From contig NZ_FCOT01000012.1 in the NCBI RefSeq assembly GCF_900046455.1, positions 730,017-794,016 of the forward strand: DNA of 64,000 bases, given 5' to 3'. The position numbers and the translations under genes were made by a program. The notes under the pieces were generated by a model. The model made no database searches, had not been told where the DNA came from, and saw nothing but the letters and a program-made list of their open reading frames with translations. Source of the stretch: Cellulomonas timonensis. GTDB lineage: Bacteria; Actinomycetota; Actinomycetes; Actinomycetales; Cellulomonadaceae. Positions 15,090 through 61,856 of this stretch are shown piece by piece (position 1 is the stretch's first letter; every line of letters starts with the position of its first letter).

Positions 15090-16757
15090 CTACAGCGCCG
15101 CGGTCGCCTCCTTGGCGGCGGCGCGGCGCCCGCCGATGTACCCGAAGGTCATCGCGGGGCCGATGGTCGAGCCGGGACCCGGGTACGTGTTGCCCATCAC
15201 CGAGGCGGACGTGTTGCCCGCCGCGTACAGCCCTTCGATGACGGAGCCGTCCTCGCGGAGCACGCGCGCGTGCTCGTCGGTCAGCAGCCCGCCCTTGGTG
15301 CCGAGGTCGCCCGGGTAGATCTTGATGGCGTAGAACGGCGGCCTGCTCACCGAGCCCAGGTTCGGGTTGGGCTTGACCCGCGGGTCGCTGTAGACGCGGT
15401 CATAGGCGCTGTCCCCACGGTGGAAGTCCTCGTCCACGCCGGTGGCGGCGAACTGCGCGAACCGGCCGGCGGTGCGCCGCAGGCCGTCCTTGTCGATGCC
15501 CATCTTCTCGGCGAGCTCCTCCAGGGAGTCGGCCTTGGTCATGAACCCGGACTCGATGAGCTTCTTGGGCGTCATGCCGGGCAGGGCCATGCCGAACGGG
15601 TACCGGGAGCGGTGCCGCGAGTCGATGATCAGGTAGGCGGGGATCGCCGCGATCGTGGCGTTCCGCTCGTACTGGTGGTGTCCGGCGTCCACGTACGACT
15701 CGGACTCGTTCATGAACCGCTCGCCGCCCGCGTCGACGATGAACCCGTGCGGCAGCGAGCGCTCGGCGAGCAGGAACTGCGCCGCGCCGTCGGGCTTGAG
15801 CACCGACGGCCCCCACCAGGCGTCGTCCATCAGCGCGAGGGCCGCGCCGGCGGCGATCCCGGCCTGGATGACCTCGCCGGTGTCGCCGGGGTTGGCGCTG
15901 GTCCACTCGGTGGTGATGGGGTGCGGGTGGTGCTTCTGCCGCATCTCGTCGTTGTGGGCGAAGCCGCCGGCGGCGAGCATGACGCCGTGGCGGGCGCCGA
16001 TCCGCATCCGCTTGCCCTCGTGGTCGACGACGACGCCGACCACCGCGCCGTCCTCGATGATCAGCTCGACCAGCGGAGACTCGAGCCAGATGGGGATGTC
16101 GCGCTGGAGCGCGAGGTGCAGCATCTGGCCCATGAGACTGTTGCCGAGCCCGACGAGCTTCTTGCCGAGCAGGCGGCTGCCGATGGTCTGGAAGCCGACC
16201 ACGTTGGCGGCGGTGAGGAAGCCCTTGACGGTGCGCAGCGACAGGTTCATGGACGCCACCTCGTAGGTGTGCACCGGCATGGGGATCAGCCCGCGGAGCT
16301 TCGCGCCCCAGGCCCCCAGCTTGCGCATGTCCCAGCGGTCGCCCTCGATGCCGCGTCCGATGGCCATGCCACCCGGCTTCTCGGGGTAGTAGTCGGCGTA
16401 GCCGCGTCCGTAGACGAAGCGGAAGCCCAGGCCGCGCAGGAACTCGACCATCGCGGGCCCCTCGGTGAGGAACGCGTGCCGCCGCTCGGGGGAGCTCGCG
16501 GGTCCGACGTCGCCGATCACCTCGTCGAGATAGGTGCGCGCGGCCTCGTAGGAGTCGGAGACGCCAGCGTCGCGCATGACGGGGTTGTTCGGGACCCAGA
16601 GGCCCCCGCCGGACATCGCCGAGGACCCGCCGTACAGTTCCGTGCTCTCGAGGACGAGAGGCTCCTTGCCAGACTCCTTGACCGCGAGCGCTGTGGTCAT
16701 CGCCGCTGAGCCCGTGCCGACGACCACGACGTCGACGACCTTGTCGAACTTGCCCAT
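15090..16757 (-). CDS. FAD-dependent 3-ketosteroid Delta1-dehydrogenase-like oxidoreductase
   Basis: A 555-aa flavoprotein of the fumarate reductase/KstD family; ATG 16757 follows AAGGGGAAG. The N-terminal Rossmann FAD site is VVVVGTGSAAMTTALAVKES with the acidic ribose ligand in LVLEST, followed by YGGSSAMSGGGLWVPNNP, a hallmark of KstD-like enzymes. The C-terminal FAD-binding loop is YAAGNTSASVMGNTYPGPGS. KstDs introduce a double bond in the steroid A-ring, but related enzymes act on other enones, so the substrate is open. A TetR gene is divergent from it and a second TetR/DUF5692 pair follows, suggesting a small lipid or steroid-responsive cluster. Confidence 0.85.
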   Translation of the reverse strand: MGKFDKVVDVVVVGTGSAAMTTALAVKESGKEPLVLESTELYGGSSAMSGGGLWVPNNPVMRDAGVSDSYEAARTYLDEVIGDVGPASSPERRHAFLTEGPAMVEFLRGLGFRFVYGRGYADYYPEKPGGMAIGRGIEGDRWDMRKLGAWGAKLRGLIPMPVHTYEVASMNLSLRTVKGFLTAANVVGFQTIGSRLLGKKLVGLGNSLMGQMLHLALQRDIPIWLESPLVELIIEDGAVVGVVVDHEGKRMRIGARHGVMLAAGGFAHNDEMRQKHHPHPITTEWTSANPGDTGEVIQAGIAAGAALALMDDAWWGPSVLKPDGAAQFLLAERSLPHGFIVDAGGERFMNESESYVDAGHHQYERNATIAAIPAYLIIDSRHRSRYPFGMALPGMTPKKLIESGFMTKADSLEELAEKMGIDKDGLRRTAGRFAQFAATGVDEDFHRGDSAYDRVYSDPRVKPNPNLGSVSRPPFYAIKIYPGDLGTKGGLLTDEHARVLREDGSVIEGLYAAGNTSASVMGNTYPGPGSTIGPAMTFGYIGGRRAAAKEATAAL

Positions 16758-16870
16758 CGCACTTCCCCTTCGAAGTCGGACACGCCAGCCAACCGGACAC
16801 CGGCGTCCACTTCAAGGTACCGGGGTCGCGCGCGGCCCGCCAGGGACAGAAGGCCTCGGGCCTGCTCGGC

Positions 16871-16885
16871 TAGGCTCGACGGGTG
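16871..16885 (+). promoter_or_regulatory. Leaderless promoter of the TetR gene
   Basis: TAGGCT at 16871-16876 is a good actinobacterial -10 hexamer, and the GTG start lies exactly six bases after it. Transcription would therefore begin at or next to the start codon. No ribosome site is present, which supports a leaderless mRNA. Confidence 0.65.
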
Positions 16886-17497
16886 AGCCAACGGCGCGAC
16901 GCCCAGCGCAACCGGGCCCGGCTCATCGCCGCCGCCGCCGAGGTCTTCCGCGAGGACGGGGCCGCCGCGCCCCTCGACCTCGTCGCCCGACGCGCCGACG
17001 TCGGGCGTGGAACCCTCTACCGCCACTTCCCCGACCGCGGGGCCCTCATCGCCGCCGTCCTCAAGATGCGCATGGACGCCCTCGAGCACTACGCGGCCGA
17101 CTACCCCGGCGACGACCTCCTCGAGCACCTCCTCGCCGAGATCCTCGCCCTCCAGCTCGACGCGCCCGGGCTCGCCACCGCCATCCGCACCGCCGGATCC
17201 GACGAGCCACTCGGCGCCATGTTCGAGCAGACCCGGGGCCTGCTCTCCGCCGCGCTCGACCGCGCCCACGCCGCCCGCCTGGTGCGCGAGGACCTCACCC
17301 TCCCCGAGGTGATGCTCGCCATCGCCATGCTCGACGGCGCCGTCTCGGCGCACACCCGCCTGCCCGAGGACGCCCCTGTCGAGCTGGCCCTGGCGATCGT
17401 GCTGCGCGGGATGCGCAGCCCCGCGAGGTCGCGACTTCCCGTGCCCGACCCCGCGCTGCGCCTGCCGACCGCCCAGGAGCTCCAGCCCGACGACTGA
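16883..17497 (+). CDS. TetR-family transcriptional regulator
   Basis: A 204-aa protein starting at GTG 16883, probably on a leaderless transcript. The HTH region (about 8-55) reads ARLIAAAAEVFREDGAAAPL, then RRADVGRGTLYRHFPDRGAL. LYRHFP is a typical TetR recognition element. The C-terminal half is the helical TetR_C effector domain. It is divergent from the KstD-like flavoprotein (126 bp between starts), so that gene is the first candidate target. No clean operator was found in the gap apart from a distant GAAGT/ACTTC pair. Confidence 0.9.
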   Translation: MSQRRDAQRNRARLIAAAAEVFREDGAAAPLDLVARRADVGRGTLYRHFPDRGALIAAVLKMRMDALEHYAADYPGDDLLEHLLAEILALQLDAPGLATAIRTAGSDEPLGAMFEQTRGLLSAALDRAHAARLVREDLTLPEVMLAIAMLDGAVSAHTRLPEDAPVELALAIVLRGMRSPARSRLPVPDPALRLPTAQELQPDD

Positions 17498-46461: not shown

Positions 46462-48015
46462 CTACGTGCCCACCCCAGACGTCTCCGGCGCGGTCACCCG
46501 GCCGTCGCGCACCACGGCGACGACGTCGGCATGCGCGCGCAGCAGCGTCACGTCATGCGAGACGAGCAGGACCCCGACCCCGCGCTCCCGCGCGAGTCGG
46601 GCGACGAGTGCCACGAGCTCGGCGGCGGCCGCCGCGTCGAGCATCGCGGTGATCTCGTCGCAGACGAGCAGCGCGGGACGCAGCCCGAGCGCCCGGGCGA
46701 CGGCCGCGCGCTGCAGCTCGCCGCCGGAGACCTGCGCCGGGCGGCGGTCCAGCAGGTCGGCGGCGAGGCCGACGGCGGCGGCGAGGTCCGCGACGGGATC
46801 GGGCGAGCTGCCGTGCGGCCAGTCGGCCAGGCGCTGCGGCAGCGTGATCGACCGGCGGAGCGTCAGCCGTGGGTCCATCGCGGCGCGCGGCTCCTGCTGC
46901 ACCCAGCCCACGCTGCGGCGGAGCGCCGCTGGCACGCGCGCGCCGACGGCCCGCACGTCCTGGCCTGCGATCTGCACGCTCCCGGCGTCGGGAGGGTGCA
47001 TGAGCGCCGCCACCGCCGCGAGCGTCGACTTGCCGGACCCGGACGGCCCCGCGACGCCGACGACCTCGCCGGGCCGCACCGTCAGGTCGACGTCCGTGAG
47101 CACGGGCACGCGCCCGTAGCCAGCAGCGACGCCCCGCAGCCGCACCGCGTCCGGCACATCCACCGCGTCGGACGCGGCGCGGGGCCCGGGTCGGAGCCCG
47201 CCGCGGCGCGCCCGCACCAATGCCCGCGTGACGGCGTGCACGGGATCGTCCAGCACGGCACGGGCCGGTCCGCGCTCGACGACCTGCCCGTCGGCCATGA
47301 CGCTCAGCGTGTCGCCGTACGCGCGGGCGAGCTCGACGTCATGGGTCACCAGCAGGGCCGCGTGCCCTGAGCGGGTGTAGGTGCGCAGCATCTGTGCGAG
47401 CAGCGCCCCGGCGTCCTCGTCGAGGCCGCTCGCGGGCTCGTCCGCGAGCAGCAGCGGGGGGTGCCCGGCGAGCGCGGCGGCGACGGCGGCGCGGCGGATC
47501 TGCCCGCCGGAGACCTGGTGCGGGTAGCGGTCGAGCAGGTCCACGTCGAGCCCGGCGGTCGCGGCCAGCTCGTCCACGTGCCGCCGGACGGTCTCGCGCG
47601 TCAGGTGCGGGTGCCCGGGCAGCAGCCGGCCCGACGCGGCGCCGAGCGCCACGACCGCCTCGGTGAGCTGCACGCGCAGCGTGCGGACGGGGGTGAACGA
47701 CGTGGCCGCTGACTGGGGCACCACGCCGACGAGCCGTCCGTAGACCGTCCCGGCGAACGTCGCGGCGTCCGCGCCGAGCAGGTCGACGGCGCCGTGGTCG
47801 ACACCGAGCCGAGCGGCGCCCGCCACCTGGCTGCCGCGCGGCAGGGCGCCGGTCAGCGCCCGGATCAGCAGGGTCTTGCCGGCCCCCGACCGGCCGACGA
47901 CGACGTGGAGGTCGCCCGGGACGAGGTCGAGGTCGACTCCCCGCAGCAGGTGGCGCCCGTCGATGCCGACGTGCAGCGCGCGGGCGCGGAGCACCGCGAT
48001 GTGCTCAGACGGCAT
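46462..48015 (-). CDS. Nickel/peptide ABC importer ATPase, fused double domain
   Basis: A 517-aa protein carrying two complete nucleotide-binding domains, like NikD and NikE (or DppD and DppF) fused. Domain 1: Walker A VGRSGAGKTLL, signature QVSGGQIRRAAVAAAL, Walker B LLLADEPASGLDEDA. Domain 2: Walker A AGPSGSGKSTL, signature QVSGGELQRAAVARALG, Walker B LLVCDEITAMLDAA. In domain 2 the residue after the Walker B Glu is Ile rather than the usual Pro. It overlaps the permease gene by 11 bases and closes the urease-nickel unit. Energy supply for nickel uptake is inferred from context. Confidence 0.9.
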   Translation of the reverse strand: MPSEHIAVLRARALHVGIDGRHLLRGVDLDLVPGDLHVVVGRSGAGKTLLIRALTGALPRGSQVAGAARLGVDHGAVDLLGADAATFAGTVYGRLVGVVPQSAATSFTPVRTLRVQLTEAVVALGAASGRLLPGHPHLTRETVRRHVDELAATAGLDVDLLDRYPHQVSGGQIRRAAVAAALAGHPPLLLADEPASGLDEDAGALLAQMLRTYTRSGHAALLVTHDVELARAYGDTLSVMADGQVVERGPARAVLDDPVHAVTRALVRARRGGLRPGPRAASDAVDVPDAVRLRGVAAGYGRVPVLTDVDLTVRPGEVVGVAGPSGSGKSTLAAVAALMHPPDAGSVQIAGQDVRAVGARVPAALRRSVGWVQQEPRAAMDPRLTLRRSITLPQRLADWPHGSSPDPVADLAAAVGLAADLLDRRPAQVSGGELQRAAVARALGLRPALLVCDEITAMLDAAAAAELVALVARLARERGVGVLLVSHDVTLLRAHADVVAVVRDGRVTAPETSGVGT

Positions 48016-48910
48016 GACGGGCCCCCCGGTGCAGGGCGGCGCCGAGGCATACGGTCGCGGCGACGAGCAGCCCCGCGGGCGCGGCGAGCGTCCACCAGGC
48101 GCCGGACACGACCGACTGCTGCGCGAGCTCGATGAGCGAGCCGAGGGACGCCTGGTGCGGCGGCATCCCGAGGCCCAGGAACGTCAGCGTCGTCTCATGC
48201 CACACCGCATGCGGCACGAGCAGCGCCGTCGCGACGCCGACCTGGGCGCCCACATGCGGCAGGACGTGGTGGCGCAGCACCTGGCGGCGCGTGTATCCCT
48301 GCGACGTGGCGGCGCGCACCCAGGCCCGCTCGCGCAGCGACAGGACCTCGCCCCGCACCAAGCGCGTGGTGCCGGTCCAGTGCGTGAGCGCCACGACGAG
48401 CACGACAGTCCACAGGCTTCCCCGGTACACGGTCGCGATGATGATGCCGAGCAGCAGATGCGGCACTGCGGCGACCCCGTCGACGCCGCGCATGAGGATG
48501 CGGTCCGCGCGGCCGCCGAGCATCGCGCTCGCCGCGCCCAGGGCCGTGCCGAGGAGCGCCGCCACCGCCGCGCCCACTGCGGCCGCCAGCAGGGAGACTT
48601 GCAGCGCCCGCGCGCACCGCACGAACAGGTCGCGCCCCGCGACGTCCGTGCCGAACGGGTGCGCCCACGAGGGCGCGGTGACGCCCGCGACGTAGTCGAC
48701 GGCGCCTGTGTCGGCGCCACCCCACCAGCCGGTGGCGCTCGCGACGATCGGCACGGCCAGTGCGTACAGGATGATGACGGCCCCGGCGGCGTACGGCCAT
48801 CGGGGGGTGCGCGGCGGGTGCGTGACGGAGGACAGCCCCGCCATGGTGGCTGGCGCCCGCCACGGCGGGGCGGCGACCAGGCCGGCGGTCATGCGCTGCT
48901 CAGAGGTCAT
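48005..48910 (-). CDS. Nickel/peptide ABC importer permease (NikC/DppC type)
   Basis: A 301-aa permease from ATG 48910. After one helix (about 43-60) comes the OppC-type motif PSWAHPFGTDVAGRDLFVRC, then the BPD_transp_1 core with YTRRQVLRHHVLPHV as the EAA loop and ETTLTFLGLGMPPHQASLGS, which is highly characteristic of DppC/NikC proteins. The start lies within the end of the partner permease gene (11-base overlap), and its own end overlaps the ATPase gene. Confidence 0.92.
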   Translation of the reverse strand: MTSEQRMTAGLVAAPPWRAPATMAGLSSVTHPPRTPRWPYAAGAVIILYALAVPIVASATGWWGGADTGAVDYVAGVTAPSWAHPFGTDVAGRDLFVRCARALQVSLLAAAVGAAVAALLGTALGAASAMLGGRADRILMRGVDGVAAVPHLLLGIIIATVYRGSLWTVVLVVALTHWTGTTRLVRGEVLSLRERAWVRAATSQGYTRRQVLRHHVLPHVGAQVGVATALLVPHAVWHETTLTFLGLGMPPHQASLGSLIELAQQSVVSGAWWTLAAPAGLLVAATVCLGAALHRGARHAV

Positions 48911-49907
48911 CGGCGCGCACCCTCGGGTCGACGAGCACGAGCGCGGCGTCGGCGAGCAGGTTGCCCAGCAGCACCAGGACCGTCAGGCACACGGTCGTGC
49001 CGGCGAGCAGCGCGAGGTCGCGGCCCACCGCGGCGTCCACCATCGCCTGCCCCAGCCCTGGCCAGGAGAAGACCGTCTCGACGAGCGCGGCGCCCACGAC
49101 CAGCTCGGGCAGCCGGGTGCCGAGCAGTGCCAGCAGCGGCACGACTGCGACGGGGAGCACGTGCCGGGACGTGACGGTCCGCGGCGGCAGCCCGCGCAGC
49201 CGAGCCGCGAGCACGGCGTCCGACGAGCGGGCGCCGATGAGCGCGGCGTGCAGGTGCAGCGCGATCCACGGCACCTGTGACAGGGCGACGGCGAGCGCCG
49301 GCAGGAGCGCGTGCGACGCGACGGTCGCGACGGTCAGGGGCTCGCCGGGTGGAGCCAGGCCGCCCGCCGGCAGCCACCCCAGGCCGAGGGCGAACACGAG
49401 GAGCAGCCCGAGGCCCACGATGTAGGCGGGGGCGGCGGACAACGCCCACGCGACGCCCGTCAGCACTCGCGCGGCGAGGCTTTCGGGCCGGCGCGCGGCC
49501 GCGACGGCGAGCGGCACGGCGAGCAACGCGCCGAGCAGCAGCCCCGCCGTCATCACCAGCGCCGTCCACGGGATGCGCGCGGCGAGCGTGTCGGCGACCG
49601 GAGCCCGCAGGATCGTGGACGTGCCCCAGTCGCCGGTGAGCGCGCCCTGCCACCAGGCGAGGCACGCCTGCCACCAGTTGCCCTGGTCGAGCAGCTCCCC
49701 GACGGCGGCGCGGGTCTGTGTGTTCGTGAACTCCCCGCGGGCGCCGAGGAACCCGCTCGTGCCATCCGCCGGGGTGAGCGACGCCAGCAGGAAGACCAGG
49801 GCGCTGACGCCGAGCAGCAACGGCACTGCCCACAGGGCACGCCGCAGGACGACTCTCCGCACGGCATGCGCCCGGGACGACGAGCGCGCCGCGGACGGCA
49901 CGGTCAC
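48900..49907 (-). CDS. Nickel/peptide ABC importer permease (NikB/DppB type)
   Basis: A 335-aa permease; GTG 49907 overlaps the binding-protein stop (GTGA). The N-terminal helix LRRALWAVPLLLGVSALVFL and an external loop with a WWQ/WWQG segment precede the transport core. The EAA loop is RLRGLPPRTVTSRHVLPVAV and the C-terminal signature VETVFSWPGLGQAMVDAAVG is typical of DppB/NikB. It pairs with the DppC-like subunit encoded next. Confidence 0.92.
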   Translation of the reverse strand: MTVPSAARSSSRAHAVRRVVLRRALWAVPLLLGVSALVFLLASLTPADGTSGFLGARGEFTNTQTRAAVGELLDQGNWWQACLAWWQGALTGDWGTSTILRAPVADTLAARIPWTALVMTAGLLLGALLAVPLAVAAARRPESLAARVLTGVAWALSAAPAYIVGLGLLLVFALGLGWLPAGGLAPPGEPLTVATVASHALLPALAVALSQVPWIALHLHAALIGARSSDAVLAARLRGLPPRTVTSRHVLPVAVVPLLALLGTRLPELVVGAALVETVFSWPGLGQAMVDAAVGRDLALLAGTTVCLTVLVLLGNLLADAALVLVDPRVRADDL

Positions 49908-51523
49908 GGGACGGCCTTCCACTCCTCGACGTTCCACCACGGCCCCCACGCGACGCCGTGCTCGTGGGGCTCGACGACGTGCTCGACGCCCGAGTACTCG
50001 TCGAGGCCGCGCGCCGCGTACGTGTGCTCGAGCGTGACCAGGGTGATCATCGGCGGGTTCGCCATGAGCACCTCCTGCAGGTCCAGGTAGGCCTGTGTGC
50101 GCACGTCCGGGTCCGCGCTGCGCCGCGCGGTGTCGAGCAGCGCGTCAGCGCGCGGGTCGGAGTACCCGGACGGGTTGGTGTAGGCGTCCTCGGGGTCGTA
50201 GGGCGCGAAGGACGAGTGCAACGCCGTGTACACCTGCGTGTCGGGGTCGTAGGGCCGGTCGCCGCCGCCGAGCACGAACGCCTTGGTGTTCATGCCCGCC
50301 GCCGCGGCGGGCCGGTCGACGGCCTCCACCTCGACGTCCGCGCCGATCTCCGACAGGTCCGAGGCCACCGCCAAGGCGAGGTCGCGGCGCAGGGTGTCCT
50401 CGGCGAAGTACATGATCGTGAACTGCAAGGGCACGCCGTCCTGGGCGCGCGTCCCGTCGGCGCCAGCCGTCCACCCCGCCGCGTCGAGCAGCGCCTCCGC
50501 CTCGGCGGGGTCGTGGGCGAACTGCGCGTCGGCGTCGTACGCCGCGCCCTGCGCGGGGGTGAACGGCGTCGCGGCGGCCCGCCCGTAACCCCGCAGGATG
50601 CCCTCGACGAGCGCCTCGCGGTCCACCGCGAGGTTGAGGGCGAGCCGGACGGCGGGATCTTGGAACGCCGGCACGCCCTGCGGCAGGGTGACGGCGCGGT
50701 AGTCCGCCGACGTGTTGGTGAACACGGTGAGGTCGTCAACGCCCTCGAGCTCGGCAGCAGCCCGCGGCGGCAGCTGGGCCCCGTCGAAGTCCCCGGCACG
50801 CAGCCGCTGCGCCCGGACGTTCTCGTCGGGCACGAACGCGATGACGAGCCTGTCGACGTCCGGGCGCTCGCCGCGGTACGTGTCAGAGGCCTCCAGGGTC
50901 AGCGATTCCCCCGCGCGCCACTCGGTCAGCCGGTACGGGCCGGACCCCACGGGCTCGCGGTTCAGCGTCGAGTCCAGGACGGTGCCGGTCAGCAGCTCGG
51001 ACGGCGCGATGCCGACAGTCAGGGTGCTGGGGAAGGGCGCATACGGCTCCGACAGCACGAACTCGACGGTCGTGGCGTCCGGCGCCGAGACGTCGGTGAG
51101 GAACTCGAACGACGACGCGAGCGGTGACGCGTACGCAGGGTCGATCAGCGTCCGGTACGTCGCGACGACGTCTGCGCTGTCGAGGGCGGTCCCGTCGGAG
51201 AACCCGACGCCGTCCTGGATCCGCACGGTCCACCGCGTCAGGGACTGGTCGGGCTCCGGCTCGCCGGTGGCGAGGTCGGGCTCCATAGCGCCGTCTGCGG
51301 CGACGGCGTAGAGGCCGTCATAGATCTTCGAGGTGATGCCGAACATGGCGTCCAGCGGGTTGAGCGTCGCGTACTCCGCGTACTCCGCGAGGCGGACCGT
51401 CACCTGCCCCGCGTCCGCTCCCCCGTTGTCGGGCGTTGGGTTGGTGCAGGCGGCTGCGACCACCAGCACCAGCACCGCCGATGCTGCTGCTGACAGCCGT
51501 GATGATGTCCGCCCGGTGCTCAT
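49904..51523 (-). CDS. Nickel/peptide-type ABC substrate-binding lipoprotein
   Basis: A 539-aa SBP_bac_5 lipoprotein from ATG 51523; the signal SSRLSAAASAVLVLVVAAAC places the lipidated Cys at residue 26. TLNPLDAMFGITSKIYDGLY, DGVGFSDGTALDSADVVATY and EPVGSGPYRLTEWRAGESLT are family hallmarks. NikA, DppA and OppA share this fold, so specificity rests on context: it is two bases downstream of the urea channel in the urease operon, so nickel (perhaps as a chelate) is the likely cargo. There is no obvious His cluster for direct nickel binding. Confidence 0.88.
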   Translation of the reverse strand: MSTGRTSSRLSAAASAVLVLVVAAACTNPTPDNGGADAGQVTVRLAEYAEYATLNPLDAMFGITSKIYDGLYAVAADGAMEPDLATGEPEPDQSLTRWTVRIQDGVGFSDGTALDSADVVATYRTLIDPAYASPLASSFEFLTDVSAPDATTVEFVLSEPYAPFPSTLTVGIAPSELLTGTVLDSTLNREPVGSGPYRLTEWRAGESLTLEASDTYRGERPDVDRLVIAFVPDENVRAQRLRAGDFDGAQLPPRAAAELEGVDDLTVFTNTSADYRAVTLPQGVPAFQDPAVRLALNLAVDREALVEGILRGYGRAAATPFTPAQGAAYDADAQFAHDPAEAEALLDAAGWTAGADGTRAQDGVPLQFTIMYFAEDTLRRDLALAVASDLSEIGADVEVEAVDRPAAAAGMNTKAFVLGGGDRPYDPDTQVYTALHSSFAPYDPEDAYTNPSGYSDPRADALLDTARRSADPDVRTQAYLDLQEVLMANPPMITLVTLEHTYAARGLDEYSGVEHVVEPHEHGVAWGPWWNVEEWKAVP

Positions 51524-51525
51524 GA

Positions 51526-52452
51526 TCACGGCCTCCGCAATGCGCCGATGCCCGCTGCGACGACCAGCAGCAGCCACGTCGTCAGGATGTAGGGCCAGGT
51601 GTAGTGCGGTGCGTCGGTCGCGTCGTTCAGCGCCAGTGTGACGACCGCCGTCACCGCCGTGCCGAGCACCGCGTACAGCCAGGACGCGACGCTGCTGCGC
51701 AGGAAGACAACGGACAGCGCGATCGCGGTCAGCACGCCGGAGTAGCCGGCCAACCCCTCGGCGACGTCCGCGTCGGCCCAGCCCAGGGCGAGCGCGCACA
51801 GGCTGCCGACCGCGCTGCCCATCGCCGCCGCGAGGCCCACCTTCCACGACGCGACGAACAGGCCCAGCAGGATCAGCGCGCCGGACCACACGCTGCTGAT
51901 CAGGACGACCTCGGACACGTTCGTCAGCAGCGACTCCAGGTACGTCGCGCCGGCGCCCTCCACCACGTGCACGGCCGGGGACCTGACCTGCAGCCCCGCC
52001 GTGGTCGCGTGCATCACGCCAGCCACCACGCAGAACGGCGCCGTGGTGGCCGGCAGCGCGAACCGGGCGAGGGGGCGGGTGGCGAACAGCCACACGAAGA
52101 ACCTCGTCACGGGCGCGCACAAGATCCCGCCGAGCGCGGCGATCGGATAGGCCCAGCCCTGCGAGCCCAACGCGGAGTAGACGGCGGCGCCGAGCAGCGC
52201 GCCGCAGAACCCCTGCATCCCCAGGCGCACGTCCTGCGCCCCCAGGAGCGCGCCCGTGAGGGTGTTCGCGACGGCGCCGATCGCCACCAGCAGCGCCATC
52301 CGCCAGTCCGCCACCAGGAACGCGGCCAGGATGAGCAGGCCCGTCCACACGTTGCGCTGGAAGAAGATCTGCGAGAGCCCGTCGGAGAGCGAGCGCACGT
52401 CCAGGGCCGCGCCGACCCCTGCGGCCGGCGGTGGGGCGTTCGTCGCTGTCAT
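51526..52452 (-). CDS. Urea channel/transporter (UT family)
   Basis: A 308-aa integral membrane protein; ATG 52452 is chosen because upstream residues are low-complexity and AGGAGG precedes it. It has about ten helices in two similar halves: GLSQIFFQRNVWTGLLILAA, then GAVANTLTGALLGAQDVRLG and GLQGFCG-like MQGFCGALLGAAVYSALGSQ. The second half has GLAGYSGVLTAIALSVVFLR. These are features of the bacterial Yut/UT urea channels (PF03253). Placement between ureD and the nickel importer supports urea entry for the urease. Its stop is two bases before the next start. Confidence 0.92.
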   Translation of the reverse strand: MTATNAPPPAAGVGAALDVRSLSDGLSQIFFQRNVWTGLLILAAFLVADWRMALLVAIGAVANTLTGALLGAQDVRLGMQGFCGALLGAAVYSALGSQGWAYPIAALGGILCAPVTRFFVWLFATRPLARFALPATTAPFCVVAGVMHATTAGLQVRSPAVHVVEGAGATYLESLLTNVSEVVLISSVWSGALILLGLFVASWKVGLAAAMGSAVGSLCALALGWADADVAEGLAGYSGVLTAIALSVVFLRSSVASWLYAVLGTAVTAVVTLALNDATDAPHYTWPYILTTWLLLVVAAGIGALRRP

Positions 52453-52510: not shown

Positions 52511-53557
52511 TCAGGTCTTGCGCACGACCGGCGCCGGCCGGCCCGTGAGCCGCAGGCGCAGTGCCCGCCACGCGAGGGCGGTGGCGTGCGCGACGGGTGC
52601 TGTCGCGTCACCGAGGATGCGCACCCAGGCGCCGACGTCCCCCGGCAGGGCGCTGACGCCCAGCACGACGCCCTCGGCGCCGGCCACCTCGGCGTGCAGC
52701 AGGTCGGCGAGATCCGCGGCCGACGCGAGCGGGGTGACGACGTACAACATCGCCAGCACGTCGTGGTCCGCGAGCACCGCGAGGCCGCCCGTGCCGCCGT
52801 CCGCCGGGGTGAGCCGCACGCGGTCCACCGCGAGGCATGTGCCGTCCGGCCGGCGGATCTCGAGGTCGGCGGCGAGCGCCGCGTACCGGTGCCGCTCGCC
52901 GCGGGCCAGCCGCCCGGCGACGATCGTCTCGCCCGCGATCACCGTGGCGGACTCCGCCACCGTCAGGCGCGTGCGCTGGTACAGGCGCGAGTCGGCGAAG
53001 AGGACGACGGGGTCCGGCAGGTACTCCACGTACGCGTGCTCGGCGGCGTCGAGGAAGACCTGCGCCACCGCGTAGTCCTGCTCCATCCGCAGCGCGCGCG
53101 TGTAGGCCGTCGTGGTGACGTGCGCGCATGCGCCGGGGCCGAAGCCCAGGTCGGTCCGCAGCCGGTCGCCCTGCAGGATGCCGGCGCCCGTCGACATCAG
53201 GTAGACGTACGGCATGTCCTGGCGCAGCGGGTCGTAGTACAGCGGCCGCATGATCTGCAACGGCGACTTCTGGTAGTGCGCCACCAGCTCCGTGCCGTGG
53301 ACGGTCCGCGCGAACGCCAGCTCGAGGATGCCGACCTTCCCCGGGCTTCCCGTGGGCAGCATGTCGGGCACGCCGGCGAACCGGGCCACCTCCGCCGGGA
53401 CGCGGTCCGGCTCGTAGTACGCCGGCTGGAGCCGGCGCCCGCCGTACGCGGGCGCCTCCTGCCCGGCTTCCGGTGGCGCGTCGGGCGGTCCGGCCGCGCG
53501 GGCGGCCGGGACCACCGGCTCCGTCACGACGTCGGCGCTCACGGGGGTCGCGATCAC
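52511..53557 (-). CDS. ureD: Urease accessory protein UreD
   Basis: A 348-aa protein; GTG 53557 overlaps the ureG stop (GTGA). The core contains GKVGILELAFARTVHGTELV, PLYYDPLRQDMPYVYLMSTG, AGILQGDRLRTDLGFGPGAC and AHVTTTAYTRALRMEQDYAV, which are UreD hallmarks. UreD (UreH) docks on apo-urease and, with UreF and UreG, forms the nickel-insertion complex with a tunnel for Ni2+. The N-terminal 45 residues are low complexity. The last accessory gene before the urea channel. Confidence 0.93.
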   Translation of the reverse strand: MIATPVSADVVTEPVVPAARAAGPPDAPPEAGQEAPAYGGRRLQPAYYEPDRVPAEVARFAGVPDMLPTGSPGKVGILELAFARTVHGTELVAHYQKSPLQIMRPLYYDPLRQDMPYVYLMSTGAGILQGDRLRTDLGFGPGACAHVTTTAYTRALRMEQDYAVAQVFLDAAEHAYVEYLPDPVVLFADSRLYQRTRLTVAESATVIAGETIVAGRLARGERHRYAALAADLEIRRPDGTCLAVDRVRLTPADGGTGGLAVLADHDVLAMLYVVTPLASAADLADLLHAEVAGAEGVVLGVSALPGDVGAWVRILGDATAPVAHATALAWRALRLRLTGRPAPVVRKT

Positions 53558-54189
53558 GGGACCAGGACGCGCGTGCGGCCGTCCCACAGGGCGAGGATCT
53601 GATCCTGCAGCGCGTCGACCCCCACGCCGGTCAGCGAGTTGGTCAGCACCACGGGCTTGCCGTCGCGCACGCGGTGCGCGTCGGACTCCATGACGCCCAG
53701 GTCCGTGCGCACGTACTGCGCGATGTCGATCTTGTTGATCACGAGGATGTCGGAGTCGGTGATGCCGGGGCCGCGCTTGCGTGGCATCTTCTCGCCCTCG
53801 GACGTGTCCAGGACGAAGACGAACACGTCGACCAGCGCCGGGGAGAACGTGAGGGTGAGGTTGTCGCCGCCCGACTCGTACAGGAGCGTGTCGACGTCGG
53901 GGAATCGCTCGAGCATCTCGGCGCCCACCGCCAGGTTCATCGTCGGGTCGTCGCGCACGGCCGTGTGCGGGCATGCGCCAGTCTCCACCCCGATCACGCG
54001 GTCGGGGTCCAGCACACCGGCCAGCTCACGGCGCACGTGGTGGGCGTCCTCCTGCGTGTAGATGTCGTTCGTGATCACCGCCGGGCGCCTGCCAGCGGCC
54101 AGCAGCCGGGGCACCAGGGCCTCCACCAGCGCCGTCTTGCCTGATCCCACCGGTCCCCCGATGCCGATCCGCAGCACGTTCTCGCTCAT
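53554..54189 (-). CDS. ureG: Urease accessory GTPase UreG
   Basis: A 211-aa SIMIBI GTPase; ATG 54189 follows GGGGGAGAG. P-loop GGPVGSGKTALVEAL, the nickel-binding CPH motif in VETGACPHTAVRDD, the switch region YESGGDNLTLTFSPALVD, and NKIDIAQYV for guanine recognition are all present. UreG dimerises around Ni2+ through the CPH motif and delivers it to urease upon GTP hydrolysis. Unlike many UreG proteins it has no His-rich N-terminus, so extra nickel storage must reside elsewhere. Confidence 0.97.
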   Translation of the reverse strand: MSENVLRIGIGGPVGSGKTALVEALVPRLLAAGRRPAVITNDIYTQEDAHHVRRELAGVLDPDRVIGVETGACPHTAVRDDPTMNLAVGAEMLERFPDVDTLLYESGGDNLTLTFSPALVDVFVFVLDTSEGEKMPRKRGPGITDSDILVINKIDIAQYVRTDLGVMESDAHRVRDGKPVVLTNSLTGVGVDALQDQILALWDGRTRVLVP

Positions 54190-54233: not shown

Positions 54234-54929
54234 CTAGCTCGTGAACAGGCGCGCCTCGGCGCGCTCATGCTGGGCCGACATGACGTCCGCCATCGGGGCA
54301 CAGCCCCCCAGATCGGCGAGGTCGCGTGCGACGGCCTCCTCGGCCGCCTGCGCGATGACCGGGCTCATGGCGTGCAACGTGACCTGGACCTGCCGGTGGT
54401 CGGCGAGCCGGAGTCGCAGGGCGGCGCCGAGGACGCTGACGGTGAACGCCGACAGGTCGGACGCGACGGCCTGGGCCGTCCCGACCCCCGCGGCGGCGTA
54501 CGCCACCGCCATGGCGACCGGCTGGCACCCCGGCGACTCCTTGGCCGCCACGATCCGCGCCCACTCCGCGAGCACCGGCCCCCCGAGCGCGGCGCCCGCC
54601 ACGTCGGTCAGCTGGTGTCCGCTGCGCACCGACGCCCGCCGCATCTCGGCGTTGAGCTTGGTGGCGTGCAGCAGGTGGTCCACCCGCCGGACGCGGTCCC
54701 AGTCGCCCACGGCCGCCGCCTCATGGGCCCGGGCGAGCGCTGTCGCGTCCCCCGGCCCCACGGAGTGCAGCAGCAGCCCCCGCAGCAGGCCCTCGACGCC
54801 ACCCTGGTCGACCAGCCGCGCCTGGCTGAAGCCCTCCAGCCCATGCGACATCGTGTAGAAGCCGCTCGGGAACGCGGAGTCCGACAGCTGCAGGCTGACG
54901 AGCAGCGCGCGCAGGTCGGCGGTGGGCAC
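54234..54929 (-). CDS. ureF: Urease accessory protein UreF
   Basis: A 231-aa all-helical protein; GTG 54929 follows GAGGAG, nine bases after the ureC stop. LLVSLQLSDSAFPSGFYTMS HGLE is the conserved UreF opening (SDSxFPxGxFxxSxGLE), and RRVDHLLHATKLNAEMRRAS with GHQLTDVA follow. UreF acts as the GTPase-gating and docking partner in the UreD-UreF-UreG complex. No ureE gene lies between ureC and ureF, where it is often found. Confidence 0.93.
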   Translation of the reverse strand: MPTADLRALLVSLQLSDSAFPSGFYTMSHGLEGFSQARLVDQGGVEGLLRGLLLHSVGPGDATALARAHEAAAVGDWDRVRRVDHLLHATKLNAEMRRASVRSGHQLTDVAGAALGGPVLAEWARIVAAKESPGCQPVAMAVAYAAAGVGTAQAVASDLSAFTVSVLGAALRLRLADHRQVQVTLHAMSPVIAQAAEEAVARDLADLGGCAPMADVMSAQHERAEARLFTS

Positions 54930-54937
54930 GGCGCTCC

Positions 54938-56662
54938 TCAGGCCAGGAAGAACAGCTGGGTCATGGGCAGCGACTTCGCGGGCTCGATGTGCGCCGGGAC
55001 GCCGTCGAGCGTCACCTTGTAGGTCTCCGGGTCGACGTCGACGACGGGCGCCCGGTCGTTGCGGACCATGTGCGCCTTGCCGAGCTGGCGGGTGCGGCGC
55101 ACCGGCAGCACCGTGCTGCGCAGTCCCAGCATGTCGGGGACCCCGGCGTCGATCGCGGCCTGCGACATGAACGTCACACGCGTGCTCTGCTGCGCCCGGC
55201 CGAACGCCCCGAACATCGGGCGGTAGAGGACGGGCTGCGGGGTCGGCAGCGACGCGTTCGGATCGCCCATCTTCGCCCACTTGATGACGCCGCCCTTGAT
55301 CACCATCTTCGGCTTGGCCGCGAACGAGTCCACCGGCCAGAGCACGATGTCGGCGAGCTTCCCCGCCTCGAGCGACCCGAGGTAGTCGGAGATGCCGCAG
55401 GTGATCGCGGGGTTGATCGTCACCTTCGCCAGGTAGCGCAGCACGCGGAAGTTGTCGTGCCGCTCGGTGTCCTCCGCGAGCCGGCCGCGCTTGTCCTTGT
55501 TGTGGTGCGCCGTCTGGAAACACCGCGTCACCGTCTCGCCGATGCGGCCCATCGCCTGCGAGTCGGACGAGAACATCGAGATGACACCCTCGTCTTGCAG
55601 CACGGTCTCCGCGGAGATCGTCTCGGCGCGCACCCGCGAGTCCGCGAACGCGACGTCCTCGGGGATGTCATGCGACAGGTGGTGGCACACCATCACCATG
55701 TCGAGCAGCTCGTCGACCGAGTTGACCGTGTACGGCAGCGTCGGGTTGGTGGACGACGGCAGCACGTTGGGGTAGCTCGCGAGCTTCATGATGTCGGGGG
55801 CGTGCCCACCGCCCGCGCCCTCCGTGTGGAAGGTGTGGATCGTGCGCCCGTTGATCGCCGAGACCGTGTCCTCGACGAAGCCCGCCTCGTTGAGGCTGTC
55901 GGTGTGGACCGCCACCTGCACGTCGTACTCGTCGGCCACTGACAGCGCGTCGCTCAGGGCTGCGGGCGTGGCGCCGAAGTCCTCATGCACCTTCAGCCCG
56001 GCGGCGCCCGCCTGGATCTGCTCGATCAACGCCTGGGGCAGCGACCCGTTGCCCTTGCCGTAGAAGCCCATGCTCACCGGGATGTCCTCGGCGGCCTCGA
56101 TCATGCGGTGCAAGTACCAGGCGCCGGGCGTCGTCGTCACGCCGTTGGTCGCGTCGCTGGGGCCGGTCCCGCCGCCGAACAGCGTGGTGATGCCATTGCT
56201 GATGGCGGCCTCGGCCTGCTGCGGCGAGATGTAGTGCACGTGCGGGTCGATGGCGCCAGCGGTCGCAATGAGGTGCTCGCCGGCGATGAACTCCGTCCCG
56301 GTGCCCACCACGAGGCGCGGATCGACGCCGTCCTGCAGGTGCGGGTTGCCGGACTTGCCGACAGCCGCGATCTTGCCGTCCTTGACGCCGATGTCGCCTT
56401 TCACCACGCCGAGCACCGGGTCGATGATGATCGCGTTGGTGATGACCAGGTCGAGCACGCCCTGCGGGCCCGTCACGTTCGGGTCCGCGCCCATGCCGTC
56501 GCGTGCCGTCTTGCCGCCGCCGTAGACGATCTCGTCGCCGTAGAACCCCTCGTTGAAGTCCTTCTCGATCTCGACGACGAGGTTCGAGTCGGCCAGATGC
56601 ACCCTGTCGCCCCGCGTGGGGCCGAACATGTCGGTGTACTGCTTGCGGGACAGGATCGCCAT
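54938..56662 (-). CDS. ureC: Urease alpha subunit UreC
   Basis: The 574-aa catalytic subunit; ATG 56662 overlaps the ureB stop (TGATG). Both nickel ions are liganded by residues present here: H141 and H143 (DPHVHY), the carbamylated K224, H253, H279 and D367. The flap carries C326 and H327 ([19 protein letters not shown]). All positions are seven higher than in the Klebsiella enzyme. K224 lies in [12 protein letters not shown], where most ureases I know have HEDWG; Phe229 replaces that Trp. The enzyme hydrolyses urea to ammonia and carbamate in the cytoplasm. Confidence 0.97.
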
Positions 56663-57078
56663 CAGTGGTCCCCCCCAGGGGTCGCGTCGGGCGCCGTCGT
56701 GGTCGGCGTGCCGTCCTTGAACTCGCACTCCGCCAGGCGGCGCAGCGCGTCGAGCCGCGTCTGGCGGGCGTCGAGACCGCCGTCGACGAGGTTGTTGAAC
56801 CCGATGAGGCGGCGTCCGCCCCCGTAGGCGGCCAGCGTGACCTCGCGGGTGTCGCCCGCCTCGAGCCGCACCCCGGTGCCGGCGGGCATGTCCAGGTGCA
56901 TGCCATACGCCTTCTCGCGGTCGAATAGCAGCGCCCGGTTGACCTCGAAGAAGTGGAAGTGCGAGCCGATCTGGACGGCGCGGTCCCCGGTGTTCGCGAC
57001 CTGCAGCGTGACCTTCGCGCGGCCGGCGTTGATCTCGATGTCCTCGTTGGTGTGGTGGTACTTGGGGCTGCCTAGCAT
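56662..57078 (-). CDS. ureB: Urease beta subunit UreB
   Basis: A 138-aa protein; ATG 57078 follows [46 protein letters not shown] and [18 protein letters not shown] with FNNLVDG are the conserved UreB blocks. A C-terminal extension of about 20 residues rich in Thr/Pro/Gly and ending GGDH is longer than in minimal UreB proteins. It forms the trimer with UreA and UreC. The stop overlaps the ureC start. Confidence 0.96.
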
Positions 57079-57118: not shown

Positions 57119-57967
57119 TCACAGATGTGCCGGCGTCGGCGCGGGCGCCGCGACGTCGTCGTGCCGGTGCTGGTGCGTGTGCCCATGGGTGTGCGGATGA
57201 CCGCCCGGCACTGGCTCATCGGCGTGCGAGTGGGCGTAGCCGTGTCCGTGGTCGGCCTCCAGCCCGTCGGCGATGCCGTCACGGCCATGGTCGAGGCCGT
57301 GCACGGCCGCGGCCACGCGCTCCCCCACGATCCGCGCCATCGCGCCGTCCGACAGCAGCGGACCGTAGAACGACGCGCCGTCGAGGGCCGAGGGCCCGGG
57401 ACTCGACGCGGCGAACCCCGCCGGGACCACCACCACGCCGTCGGCCCCCAGGAGCCGTTCGCGCCCGACGGCGCGCGCGAGATCGGCATCGGCGCCGACG
57501 CACGCGACGGCCACCTCCAGGCCAGCGCCGTGGGCGCGCACCAGGTGGGCGACGCGGTGCAGCTCGGCGTCGTCGAACGGGTCGGCCCCAGGGGCCGCGA
57601 CCACGAGGGCGGCGCCGGGCTGCGCGGCCGCCGTCCGTGTCGCCGCGATTCGCAGCAGCGCGACGAGGTGGTCGATCGTGCCGAACTGCTCGCACAGGAC
57701 GAGCCGTCCGCGGGTGGCGCCCGTGCTCAGCCAGTGCAGGGTGCGGGCGGTGTCGGCGACCGCCACCGGGTCCCGTCCCCACGTCATCGGCAGCACCGCG
57801 ACCGGCCCGGCGCCGGACTCCACCAGGGCGCGCACCCGGTCGTGCAGGGGCCTGCCGGGCACGGTCACGAGGGCCCCGGGCAGGAGGGCGAGCAGACGGC
57901 CCAGGTCCGCCCCCTGTCGGCTCTCATGGCCGCCCACCAGCACCGTCCGGGCCTGGGGCGTCGACAT
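57119..57967 (-). CDS. CbiX-like chelatase with His-rich tail, inserted in the urease operon
   Basis: A 282-aa protein lying between ureA (two bases upstream) and ureB. The N-terminal part has the CbiX/sirohydrochlorin chelatase opening [20 protein letters not shown] and the motif [16 protein letters not shown] second similar half follows ([35 protein letters not shown]). Residues about 220-275 hold about fifteen His ([32 protein letters not shown]), a typical nickel-sequestering tail as in many UreE, HypB and CooJ proteins. CbiX relatives insert Co2+ or Ni2+ into tetrapyrroles. No tetrapyrrole gene is near. With ureE missing from the operon, a nickel-chaperone role is inferred. Confidence 0.8.
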
Positions 57968-57969
57968 GG

Positions 57970-58275
57970 TCAGACCGAGACGGGGTCGTGACACGAGACG
58001 AGCTTGCTTCCGTCCGGGAACGTGGCCTCCACCTGCAGCAGGGCAATCCGCTGGCGAACGCCCGGCATGCAGTCGTGCTCCGAGACGACGTGCTTGCCCA
58101 GCTCCATGCACTCGGCGACCGACTTGCCATCCCGGGCGGCCTCGAGAATGGCCTCGGAGACCAGCGCCTGGACCTCGCTCACGTTGAGCTTGGTGCCGCG
58201 CGCACGTCGGCGACGGGCGAGGTCCGCGACCTGGTAGACGTACAACTTATCCACTTCACGCGGAGTCAGATCCAT
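57970..58275 (-). CDS. ureA: Urease gamma subunit UreA
   Basis: A 101-aa protein from ATG 58275, preceded by AGGTCCCAGGA. LTPREVDKLYVYQVADLARR, LNVSEVQALVSEAILEAARD, MPGVRQRIALLQVEATFPDG and KLVSCHDPV are the standard UreA blocks. It is the first gene of a minus-strand unit that extends about 11.8 kb to the nickel ATPase. All junctions overlap or are short; the longest internal gap is the 58 bases between ureD and the urea channel. Confidence 0.97.
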   Translation of the reverse strand: MDLTPREVDKLYVYQVADLARRRRARGTKLNVSEVQALVSEAILEAARDGKSVAECMELGKHVVSEHDCMPGVRQRIALLQVEATFPDGSKLVSCHDPVSV

Positions 58276-58600: not shown

Positions 58601-59044
58601 ATGGTCGGCGGCATCCTGGGCGTCGCAGCGCGCGAAGGCCTGATGCAGGCCATCCCGAACGTCGACCAGGTGCCGGTGGTCGTGCCGGTGGTCAACCTGC
58701 TCGCCGCATTCGCCCTGGGCTACCTGTACGAGGCACTCGCCCGCACCGCGCCCGGCACCGCGCTGACCGGCCGGCTCAAGCTGCTGATCGGTACGGGATT
58801 CTGCGGCGGCCTGAGCACGTACAGCTCGCTCGCCACCGACACGGCCGTCCTGCTGCACGATGATCGCGCCAACGTCGCGGTCCCGTACGCGCTCGGCACG
58901 GTGCTGATCGGCGCGCTCGCGACGCTCGCGGGCATCGCCCTAGGCACGCGACTGCACCCGCACGAACCGGACGAGGACGAGTTGCGTCACATCGAGGGGC
59001 ACGCCCAGAAGGCGACACCTGCGGCTCCAGGGGGTAAGTCATGA
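58601..59044 (+). CDS. crcB: Fluoride channel protein CrcB (first copy), N-terminus probably frameshifted
   Basis: From ATG 58601 the frame gives 147 aa with four hydrophobic segments and CrcB/Fluc hallmarks: GGILGVAAREGL in TM1, VVNLLAAFALGYLYEAL (N and F positions), GTGFCGGLSTYSSLATDTAV in TM3. TM1 is cut short by this start and no ribosome site precedes it. The codons just upstream in the same frame read RWSGLGLV, which would complete TM1, but that frame has no start codon. A leaderless ATG at 58506 begins MAADSRHEHGRAHPAPHSLT in a different frame. One missing base between 58506 and 58600 would join them. The gene overlaps the second crcB (ATGA). Confidence 0.8.
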   Translation: MVGGILGVAAREGLMQAIPNVDQVPVVVPVVNLLAAFALGYLYEALARTAPGTALTGRLKLLIGTGFCGGLSTYSSLATDTAVLLHDDRANVAVPYALGTVLIGALATLAGIALGTRLHPHEPDEDELRHIEGHAQKATPAAPGGKS

Positions 59045-59418
59045 CGCCCGGAGTCTTCGTCCTCGTGGTCCTCGCGGGCGGCCTCGGCGCCTGCACGCGC
59101 TACGTCGTGGACGCCCTCATCCGCAGCCGCGTCACCTCGTCCTTCCCCTGGCCCACCGCGATCATCAACCTGACCGGCTCATTCGTCCTGGGGCTGCTCA
59201 CGGGGCTGGTCGCCGCCAACGTCGCCTCGCCCGTGGTCAGCGCAACGGTCGGTATCGGGTTCCTCGGCGGCTACACGACGTTCAGCACCGCGAGCTACGA
59301 GACCGTCCAGCTGATCCGGAAGAAGAAGTACGGCGTCGCGCTGGCCTACGGGATCGGGATCCTCGTCGTGACCGTCGCGCTGGCCGCTGTCGGATATACC
59401 TGGGGACTCTCGCTGTAG
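59041..59418 (+). CDS. crcB: Fluoride channel protein CrcB (second copy)
   Basis: A 125-aa four-helix protein whose ATG overlaps the stop of the first copy (ATGA). FVLVVLAGGLGACTRYVVDA, WPTAIINLTGSFVLGLLTGL (the conserved Asn of the pore) and GIGFLGGYTTFSTASYETVQ (GxxGGxTTFSTF signature) identify it. Actinobacteria often carry paired crcB genes whose products form heterodimeric fluoride channels. No fluoride riboswitch is recognisable upstream of the pair. Confidence 0.95.
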   Translation: MTPGVFVLVVLAGGLGACTRYVVDALIRSRVTSSFPWPTAIINLTGSFVLGLLTGLVAANVASPVVSATVGIGFLGGYTTFSTASYETVQLIRKKKYGVALAYGIGILVVTVALAAVGYTWGLSL

Positions 59419-60752: not shown

Positions 60753-61793
60753 ATGCGACTGCGAACCCCACGACGACACCCGAGGGTGGTGCTGGCGGCC
60801 GCTGCCGCGGCACTCGTCCTGGGCGGCGTCACAGCGCCGGCGCCGGCACTCTCAGCCGACCTCGCGACCACGGCTGTCACGGCCGGTTGCGGCCGGGCGC
60901 CGGCACTCGCCACCGGCAACCACACGATCACCAGCGGCGGCCAGTCCCGCCAGTTCCGGCTCGACGTCCCCGCCGGCTACGACTCGAACAAGACGTACCG
61001 CCTCGTGGTCGGACTGCACTGGTGGCATGGCACGTCCCAGGACGTCGTCAACGAGAACCACTACGGGCTCAAGCCGCTCGCGGGCAACAGCACGATCTTC
61101 GTGGCCCCGCAGGGCATCGACAACGCGTGGCCCAACAACAACGGGCGCGACATCACGTTCATCGACGACGTGCTGCGCACCGTCGAAGCCGCACTCTGCG
61201 TCGACACGACACAGCGGTTCGCCACCGGCTTCAGCTACGGCGGCGGCATGAGCAACGCCCTGGCGTGCGCCCGGGCCGACGTGTTCCGCGCCGTGGCCGT
61301 CCTCAACGGGGCCCAGCTCTCGGGGTGCGCCGGCGGCACACAGCCCATCGCCTACCTCGGCTCGCACGGCGTCGTCGACGACGTCCTCAACATCTCGCAG
61401 GGGCGCGCCCTGCGCGACCGCGCGCTGCAGAACAACGGCTGCCAGGCTCAGCAGGCCCCCGAGCCCGCCGCAGGCAGCGGGCAGCACACGAAGACCACCT
61501 ACCGGTGCCGTGACGGCTTCCCGGTGGTGTGGATCGCCTCCGACAGCGGCCACCAGTGGGCGGCCCGGGATCGCAACCAGCAGCAGTCGTTCGTCCCCGG
61601 CGAGATCTGGCAGTTCTTCACGTCGCTGACGTCGCCAACGCCGACACCTACGCCCACCCCCACCGTGACCCCGACGCCGACCGCTGCCTCTTATACACAC
61701 CCGACGCTGCCGACGTCTTCACGCCTGCTGATCCCGCCGCCGCCCCCTTCGCTGACGAACTCCGTGTGCGACACTCGTGTCTCACCTCAATGA
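60753..61793 (+). CDS. Secreted CE1-type (acetylxylan/feruloyl) esterase, 3' end replaced by foreign sequence
   Basis: ATG 60753 follows AAGGAGG. Signal peptide about 1-35. The catalytic domain (about 45-285) is of the CE1/PHB-depolymerase-like type: LDVPAGYDSNKTYRLVVGLH, VAPQGIDNAWPNNNG, nucleophile S161 in GFSYGGGMSNAL, and the catalytic His region IASDSGHQWAARD. A Thr-Pro linker (TSPTPTPTPTPTVTPTPTA) ends abruptly at 61683. From there the frame reads through adapter-like sequence and stops at 61793. A CBM2 in the same frame begins beyond 61857, so the genuine gene should be a CE1-linker-CBM2 protein ending at 62180. It would release acetyl or feruloyl groups from xylan. Confidence 0.85.
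   Translation: MRLRTPRRHPRVVLAAAAAALVLGGVTAPAPALSADLATTAVTAGCGRAPALATGNHTITSGGQSRQFRLDVPAGYDSNKTYRLVVGLHWWHGTSQDVVNENHYGLKPLAGNSTIFVAPQGIDNAWPNNNGRDITFIDDVLRTVEAALCVDTTQRFATGFSYGGGMSNALACARADVFRAVAVLNGAQLSGCAGGTQPIAYLGSHGVVDDVLNISQGRALRDRALQNNGCQAQQAPEPAAGSGQHTKTTYRCRDGFPVVWIASDSGHQWAARDRNQQQSFVPGEIWQFFTSLTSPTPTPTPTPTVTPTPTAASYTHPTLPTSSRLLIPPPPPSLTNSVCDTRVSPQ
61684..61753. other. Degenerate Nextera/Tn5 library adapter embedded in the assembly
   Basis: Positions 61684-61702 match the Tn5 mosaic-end read-through CTGTCTCTTATACACATCT at 16 of 19 bases. Positions 61703-61716 match the following adapter segment GACGCTGCCGACGA at 13 of 14. Then come eight bases in the index position (CTTCACGC), and 61725-61753 matches the P5 tail GTGTAGATCTCGG... 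at about half its positions, with TGATCCCG preserved. The order and spacing are those of an adapter read-through, with T mostly changed to C. This is most simply a consensus artefact, not biology. About 100 further bases to 61856 are also unlike the neighbouring gene. Confidence 0.85.
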
Positions 61794-61856
61794 CTGAACG
61801 CTGCGTTTTCGCCGTCACACCTGGACGACGTGTCCGACTGCTGTATCACCCTAGCC

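Follow-up and report, generated by a model that had tools for sequence, protein, structure and literature searches.

The window analysed here, a stretch of 64,000 nucleotides from Cellulomonas timonensis (genome of 4.06 Mb, 99.98 % complete), carries a urease operon on its minus strand in which an additional gene, referred to here as X, lies between ureA and ureB. Start codons of the urease operon genes were picked by eye, that of X being ATG. The genes and features are as follows.

57970-58275, minus strand: ureA, urease gamma subunit (PF00547, 4e-39)
57119-57967, minus strand: X, protein of 282 aa with a predicted class II chelatase fold; core at about residues 1-228, His-rich tail at 229-282
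57119-57283, minus strand: His-rich tail of X (12 His), comprising roughly the final 54 codons plus the stop
56662-57078, minus strand: ureB, urease beta subunit (PF00699, 1.4e-39)
54938-56662, minus strand: ureC, urease alpha subunit (PF00449 and PF01979; TIGR01792 over cut-off)
54234-54929, minus strand: ureF (PF01730, 3.4e-31)
53554-54189, minus strand: ureG, with the CPH motif and without a His-rich end (TIGR00101 over cut-off)
52511-53557, minus strand: ureD (PF01774, 2.9e-46)
51526-52452, minus strand: UT-family urea transporter (PF03253, 1.9e-57)
49904-51523, minus strand: substrate-binding lipoprotein of a Nik/Opp-type ABC importer (NikA the best NCBIfam match, below cut-off)
48900-49949, minus strand: ABC permease, OppB/NikB type (best match Opp4B, below cut-offs)
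48005-48910, minus strand: ABC permease, OppC/NikC type (best match Opp4C, below cut-offs)
46462-48015, minus strand: fused double ATPase (two best NCBIfam matches NikD and NikE, below cut-offs)

Each urease gene of this operon was confirmed by Pfam, and the ORF coordinates give the order ureA, X, ureB, ureC, ureF, ureG, ureD that the sequence-only reading had proposed. The stop of ureA and the start of X are 2 nt apart. Only 8 bases separate the end of ureC from the start of ureF, therefore no gene occupies the slot that holds ureE in the operons of UreE type that were seen. UreE_N has no match across the whole C. timonensis genome, so the absence of ureE claimed from the operon stands, and a search for ureE elsewhere in the genome found none. 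The same reading had counted about fifteen His in the tail of X. There are 21 His in the whole protein and 12 within its last 54 residues, and the figure is fair once two His just before these residues are included.

No Pfam or NCBIfam model, UreE_N (PF02814) and CbiX included, matched the window's X at E≤0.01; the label "CbiX-like" given to it from the sequence therefore needed profile and fold evidence. Using hhalign, 19 X cores aligned with 20 CbiX sequences at a probability of 98.9 over 224 columns, whereas controls against UreF, UreD, UreG and UreB of the same operons gave ≤0.8. The predicted structure of X is a two-lobed class II chelatase fold, and fold and remote homology both relate X to SirB/CbiK/CbiX. 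The label is thus borne out by the profile match and the predicted fold. With the Pfam CbiX model, X from Embleya scores over the cut-off and two other X just below it, and those of Speluncibacter and the window have no match. PDB sequence searches with X, the X core profile and Embleya X returned only chance-looking matches, and no relative was found in phage or viral collections.

Eight core residues are invariant in all 19 X rows (H14, E15, T62, G64, R65, H100, D133, and R138). H14 corresponds to the first catalytic His of the chelatases, and none of the 19 rows has His at the position aligned to the second. These catalytic pairs are described as His14/His79 in CbiX-L (PMC7689651), His10/His76 in SirB, and His9/His75 in CfbA, which naturally handles Ni2+ as a homodimer with four active-site His in F430 synthesis (PMC11301274). 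Neither the M[NS]CD[ST]C motif nor a C..C motif occurs in any of the 19 X, whereas M[NS]CD[ST]C is present in 11 of 20 ordinary CbiX. Three comparisons show purifying selection on X (core against locus L052: dN 0.096, dS 0.34); X evolves faster than ureC, ureF, and ureG.

In the predicted structure, residues 243-282 of X have pLDDT <50, and on this model the tail is probably disordered. Tails of X contain 10-32 His (15-30 %) in 18 of the 19 rows, the nineteenth being that of C. iranensis, with length and make-up varying strongly between species. Among the ordinary actinobacterial CbiX examined, 11 of 20 also have at least six His past the domain, therefore a His-rich tail is not a urease-specific mark and need not be an adaptation to urease. 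In these proteins (L066-L090), M[NS]CD[ST]C followed by a His-rich tail was seen in 11 of the 20, one of them with an unread base in the motif. A His-rich C-terminal tail, with a proposed role in storage or delivery, is described for B. megaterium CbiX-L (PMC7689651). X is therefore like CbiX-L and SirB in its two-lobed fold, and like B. megaterium CbiX-L in its tail, but it keeps only the first catalytic His, lacks M[NS]CD[ST]C and sits in urease operons. The CbiX-L type combines the His tail with Fe-S cysteines, whereas X has the tail alone. CfbA belongs to the same superfamily as X, but differs as a homodimer with four active-site His that serves F430 synthesis.

The search for X in other genomes started from six named loci, the named sources including Cellulomonas, Nocardioides, Speluncibacter, and a Streptomyces plasmid. 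In a sample of 150 genomes of the window's family, the X core profile matched 13, of which eight were strong (E≤8.6e-81); the five weak matches (E 1.5e-4 to 9.9e-4, ORFs of about 930 aa) were dropped before counting. In seven of the eight strong genomes, UreC lies no more than 0.9 kb from the X core, and the eighth (G139), whose X sequence is identical to that of C. iranensis and identifies it as this species, is a remnant without UreC. A class sample of 394 genomes, with the best few candidates scored per genome for X and for UreC, gave strong X matches in five. UreC, searched with that of the window, was found in 168 of the 394, and X is present in exactly the five genomes whose UreC has 70-100 % identity to the window's, the next UreC among the matches listed (E 1.3e-159 or stronger) being at 59 %. 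Class-sample matches at E≥1.7e-13 were dropped as X; five were run against Pfam and all five were over the CbiX cut-off. The phylum sample added nothing, since its two matches at E≤1e-12 among 346 genomes were both already known.

In total, 17 complete operons (that of the window and 16 others), ordered by gene ends, have the arrangement ureA-X-ureB-ureC-ureF-ureG-ureD. With X in the same slot in all of them, the arrangement is not an oddity of the window or a matter of chance. In 13 of the operons ureD is followed by a gene for a UT urea transporter, and four have a UT-family gene ahead of ureA. The co-occurrence of X with ureABC in relatives is thus borne out. Close homologues beside cobalamin or sirohaem genes had been named as evidence that would count against a urease role; X was found only in these 17 operons and in two urease remnants, with no cobalamin or sirohaem gene context.

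One remnant is that of C. iranensis (L058, the same as L006), where X (15346-16161) and then a ureG frame (16171-16962), both open, lie near the contig end in a genome that has no UreC. This UreG lacks CPH and the tail of this X has 3 His in 44 residues; the pair represents either decay or a new use. The other, on an Embleya plasmid (L099:8863-10369), consists of X and ureB with no ureC on the plasmid, and here the tail of X keeps 11 His. The Embleya remnant does not fit a pattern of decay, unless genes were lost only recently or the remainder of the operon is chromosomal.

In a UreC tree of 60 tips, unrooted and with midpoint rooting for drawing, the 17 tips with X form one clade (100/100), therefore the co-occurrence of X with this urease is one event, inherited together and kept over time. 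The UreE tips, three in number, also form one clade, and the 40 other tips are on one side (100/99). The types separate without exception, with those of X and UreE sharing a branch. The proposal that X replaced UreE is based on this grouping of the X clade with three UreE-type ureases.

The GTPase of nickel insertion, UreG, is usually provided with nickel by UreE or by a His stretch of its own, and the His-rich end of UreG is described for ureases that lack UreE (Haas et al., 2009; PMC2770081). In the present study UreE_N was absent from all 17 X genomes searched (12 of 12 sampled and six of six named, C. iranensis being in both; the genome of the Streptomyces plasmid was outside this search). 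Among X-negative genomes with UreC, UreE was over the cut-off in three of 48, in each case adjoining ureC, and a profile of the three UreE proteins found UreE in only those three of the 62 loci analysed. The mutual exclusion of X and ureE that had been suggested is therefore seen in the X genomes, but UreE is also missing from all 40 X-negative urease genomes searched in the window's family, where its absence alone says little. The informative contrast is between His-rich UreG and X. In a count of His per 30-residue stretch at the ends of UreG, all 17 X-type UreG have at most three, 15 of them at most one, the stretches with three in the other two being upstream of the likely start, therefore the lack of a His-rich extension noted for the window extends to all the X operons. 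The three UreE-type UreG have at most two His per 30 residues, whereas 36 of the 39 others have at least five; the fetched stretch of L109 held no ureG, and six of the 40 other tips were outside the genome-wide UreE search. The remaining three (L133, L135, and L138) have only 3-4 His, therefore a urease may work without a clear His module.

HypB was considered as a nickel donor and rejected, since none of 12 X genomes had HypB over the cut-off and the matches were mostly the UreG genes. Across the 17 X genomes, nine have a single UreC (G008, G043, G103, G459, G528, and four named genomes), seven, including that of the window, have more than one, and C. iranensis lacks UreC. For the nine with a single urease, the search among nickel-holding modules (UreE, His-rich UreG and HypB, the last in five of the nine) found none other than X. 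In the seven, the other urease could supply nickel in trans.

Taken together, it is likely from sequence comparison and structure prediction that X is a dedicated urease accessory protein that collects Ni2+, holds it and hands it over to UreG. Its ancestor would be a two-lobed class II chelatase of the CbiX-L type whose tetrapyrrole chelatase function was lost, with H14 and the invariant H100 possibly a metal-binding remnant in the core. Ni2+ would be collected by X, perhaps via the neighbouring importer, held in the flexible His-rich tail, and transferred to UreG at its CPH site, by way of the former chelatase cleft or alongside it. The hand-over would take place inside the UreD-UreF-UreG/apo-urease assembly, which loads urease, giving X the role that UreE has in some ureases and the His-rich end of UreG in others. 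We infer that X binds Ni2+ and delivers it to UreG, that maturation needs X, and that the core serves in docking. The sequence-only reading, in which a chelatase fold was recruited as a urease nickel chaperone replacing UreE, gains from the fold, the linkage to one clade and the absence of UreE and His-rich UreG, and needs correcting in that the tail is not specific to urease, the absence of UreE is a background of the family, and seven genomes have another urease. A more specific proposal is evenly balanced: that X is a third, structurally independent urease nickel donor, in which the H14/H100 cleft receives Ni2+ from the protein's own tail and passes it to the CPH of UreG, and which took over from UreE in the ancestor of the clade.

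X may instead be a nickel store or buffer, an Hpn-like sink co-expressed with urease and making no hand-over to UreG. A low-confidence, probably disordered tail that is very variable between species would suit such a store, as would its fast change (dN 0.28, dS 0.70 against L052), yet a pure store needs no folded core, and a core with invariant residues is present in all 17 complete operons. The nine genomes in which no other urease or UreE was found also speak against it, and a store is unlikely. It is very unlikely that X is a structural or assembly factor, such as a folding or carbamylation aid or a scaffold, with the tail a neutral relic of CbiX. The position of X between the structural genes ureA and ureB, not among the accessory genes, is what such a factor might show, and the tails of 11 of 20 ordinary CbiX provide the relic. 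A neutral relic would, however, be expected to decay in more lineages, whereas 18 of 19 rows have a His-rich tail and the one without it is the C. iranensis remnant, from a genome without UreC. The idea that X is the housekeeping CbiX was rejected, as a separate CbiX is found elsewhere in 11 of 12 X genomes. Least probable of all, by a little, is that X is still a tetrapyrrole enzyme (a chelatase, or a demetallating or binding protein) in the urease operon by chance, since, despite the fold, the remote homology to SirB/CbiK/CbiX and the one chelatase His kept, the second catalytic His is gone in every row, M[NS]CD[ST]C is in none, CbiX is already present elsewhere in those 11 genomes, and inspection by eye of the ORFs next to the operon of the window revealed no tetrapyrrole gene.

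As a putative nickel carrier, X can be compared with the established ones. Many UreE carry a His-rich tail, and the UreE fold differs from the chelatase fold. X is like UreE in its proposed role, in its ureABCFGD partners and in its His-rich end (12 His in 54 residues in X; frequent, not universal, in UreE), but it has no UreE_N match and another fold, and it lies between ureA and ureB, whereas in the three operons with UreE that were seen ureE directly follows ureC. His-rich UreG is another solution for ureases without UreE, used in 36 of 39 operons here, but in the X clade it is a separate, differently folded protein that carries the His stretch.

Among the papers listed by searches of the open-access literature, none dealt with a CbiX-like protein encoded in a urease operon. 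A urease nickel donor is a known kind of system; the fold and family in that place appear to be new. Urease maturation is a model for how a cell delivers a toxic metal, and nearly every operon sampled has one recognisable nickel-holding module, drawn from three unrelated carriers (UreE, the UreG tail, and X), which allows the requirements on a urease nickel donor to be tested cleanly by comparison. The case of X suggests that a chelatase fold has shifted from inserting metal into a ring to delivering metal into a protein. X is in addition a gene family left unlabelled by Pfam and NCBIfam in the window, and the idea can be tested directly in the genomes where no other donor module was found.

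The importer (46462-51523) is downstream of the urea transporter on the same strand, and Nik models are the best match for two of its four proteins, all below cut-off. In the flanks fetched around other X operons it was not found, apart from weak ATPase-only matches, therefore the link between X and the importer is local to the window. C. timonensis has a second, distant urease on another contig (L051, G000:C11:612000-624000), with 52 % UreC identity and a UreG with a His-rich C-terminus; a close relative of the window's importer is located directly upstream of this urease. Two ureases of different clades are thus present in one genome, each beside a closely related Nik/Opp-type importer.

An overlapping pair of crcB-like fluoride-channel genes is located on the plus strand (58601-59418), divergent from the urease operon, the second over the TIGR00494 cut-off and the first not. 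Further along, a stretch at about 61680-61830 resembles the end of a sequencing adapter, Nextera-like. On one side of it is an esterase-like gene that has a Pro-Thr linker, on the other a cellulose-binding-like module, both named by eye, and the stretch may be an assembly artefact that splits one gene.
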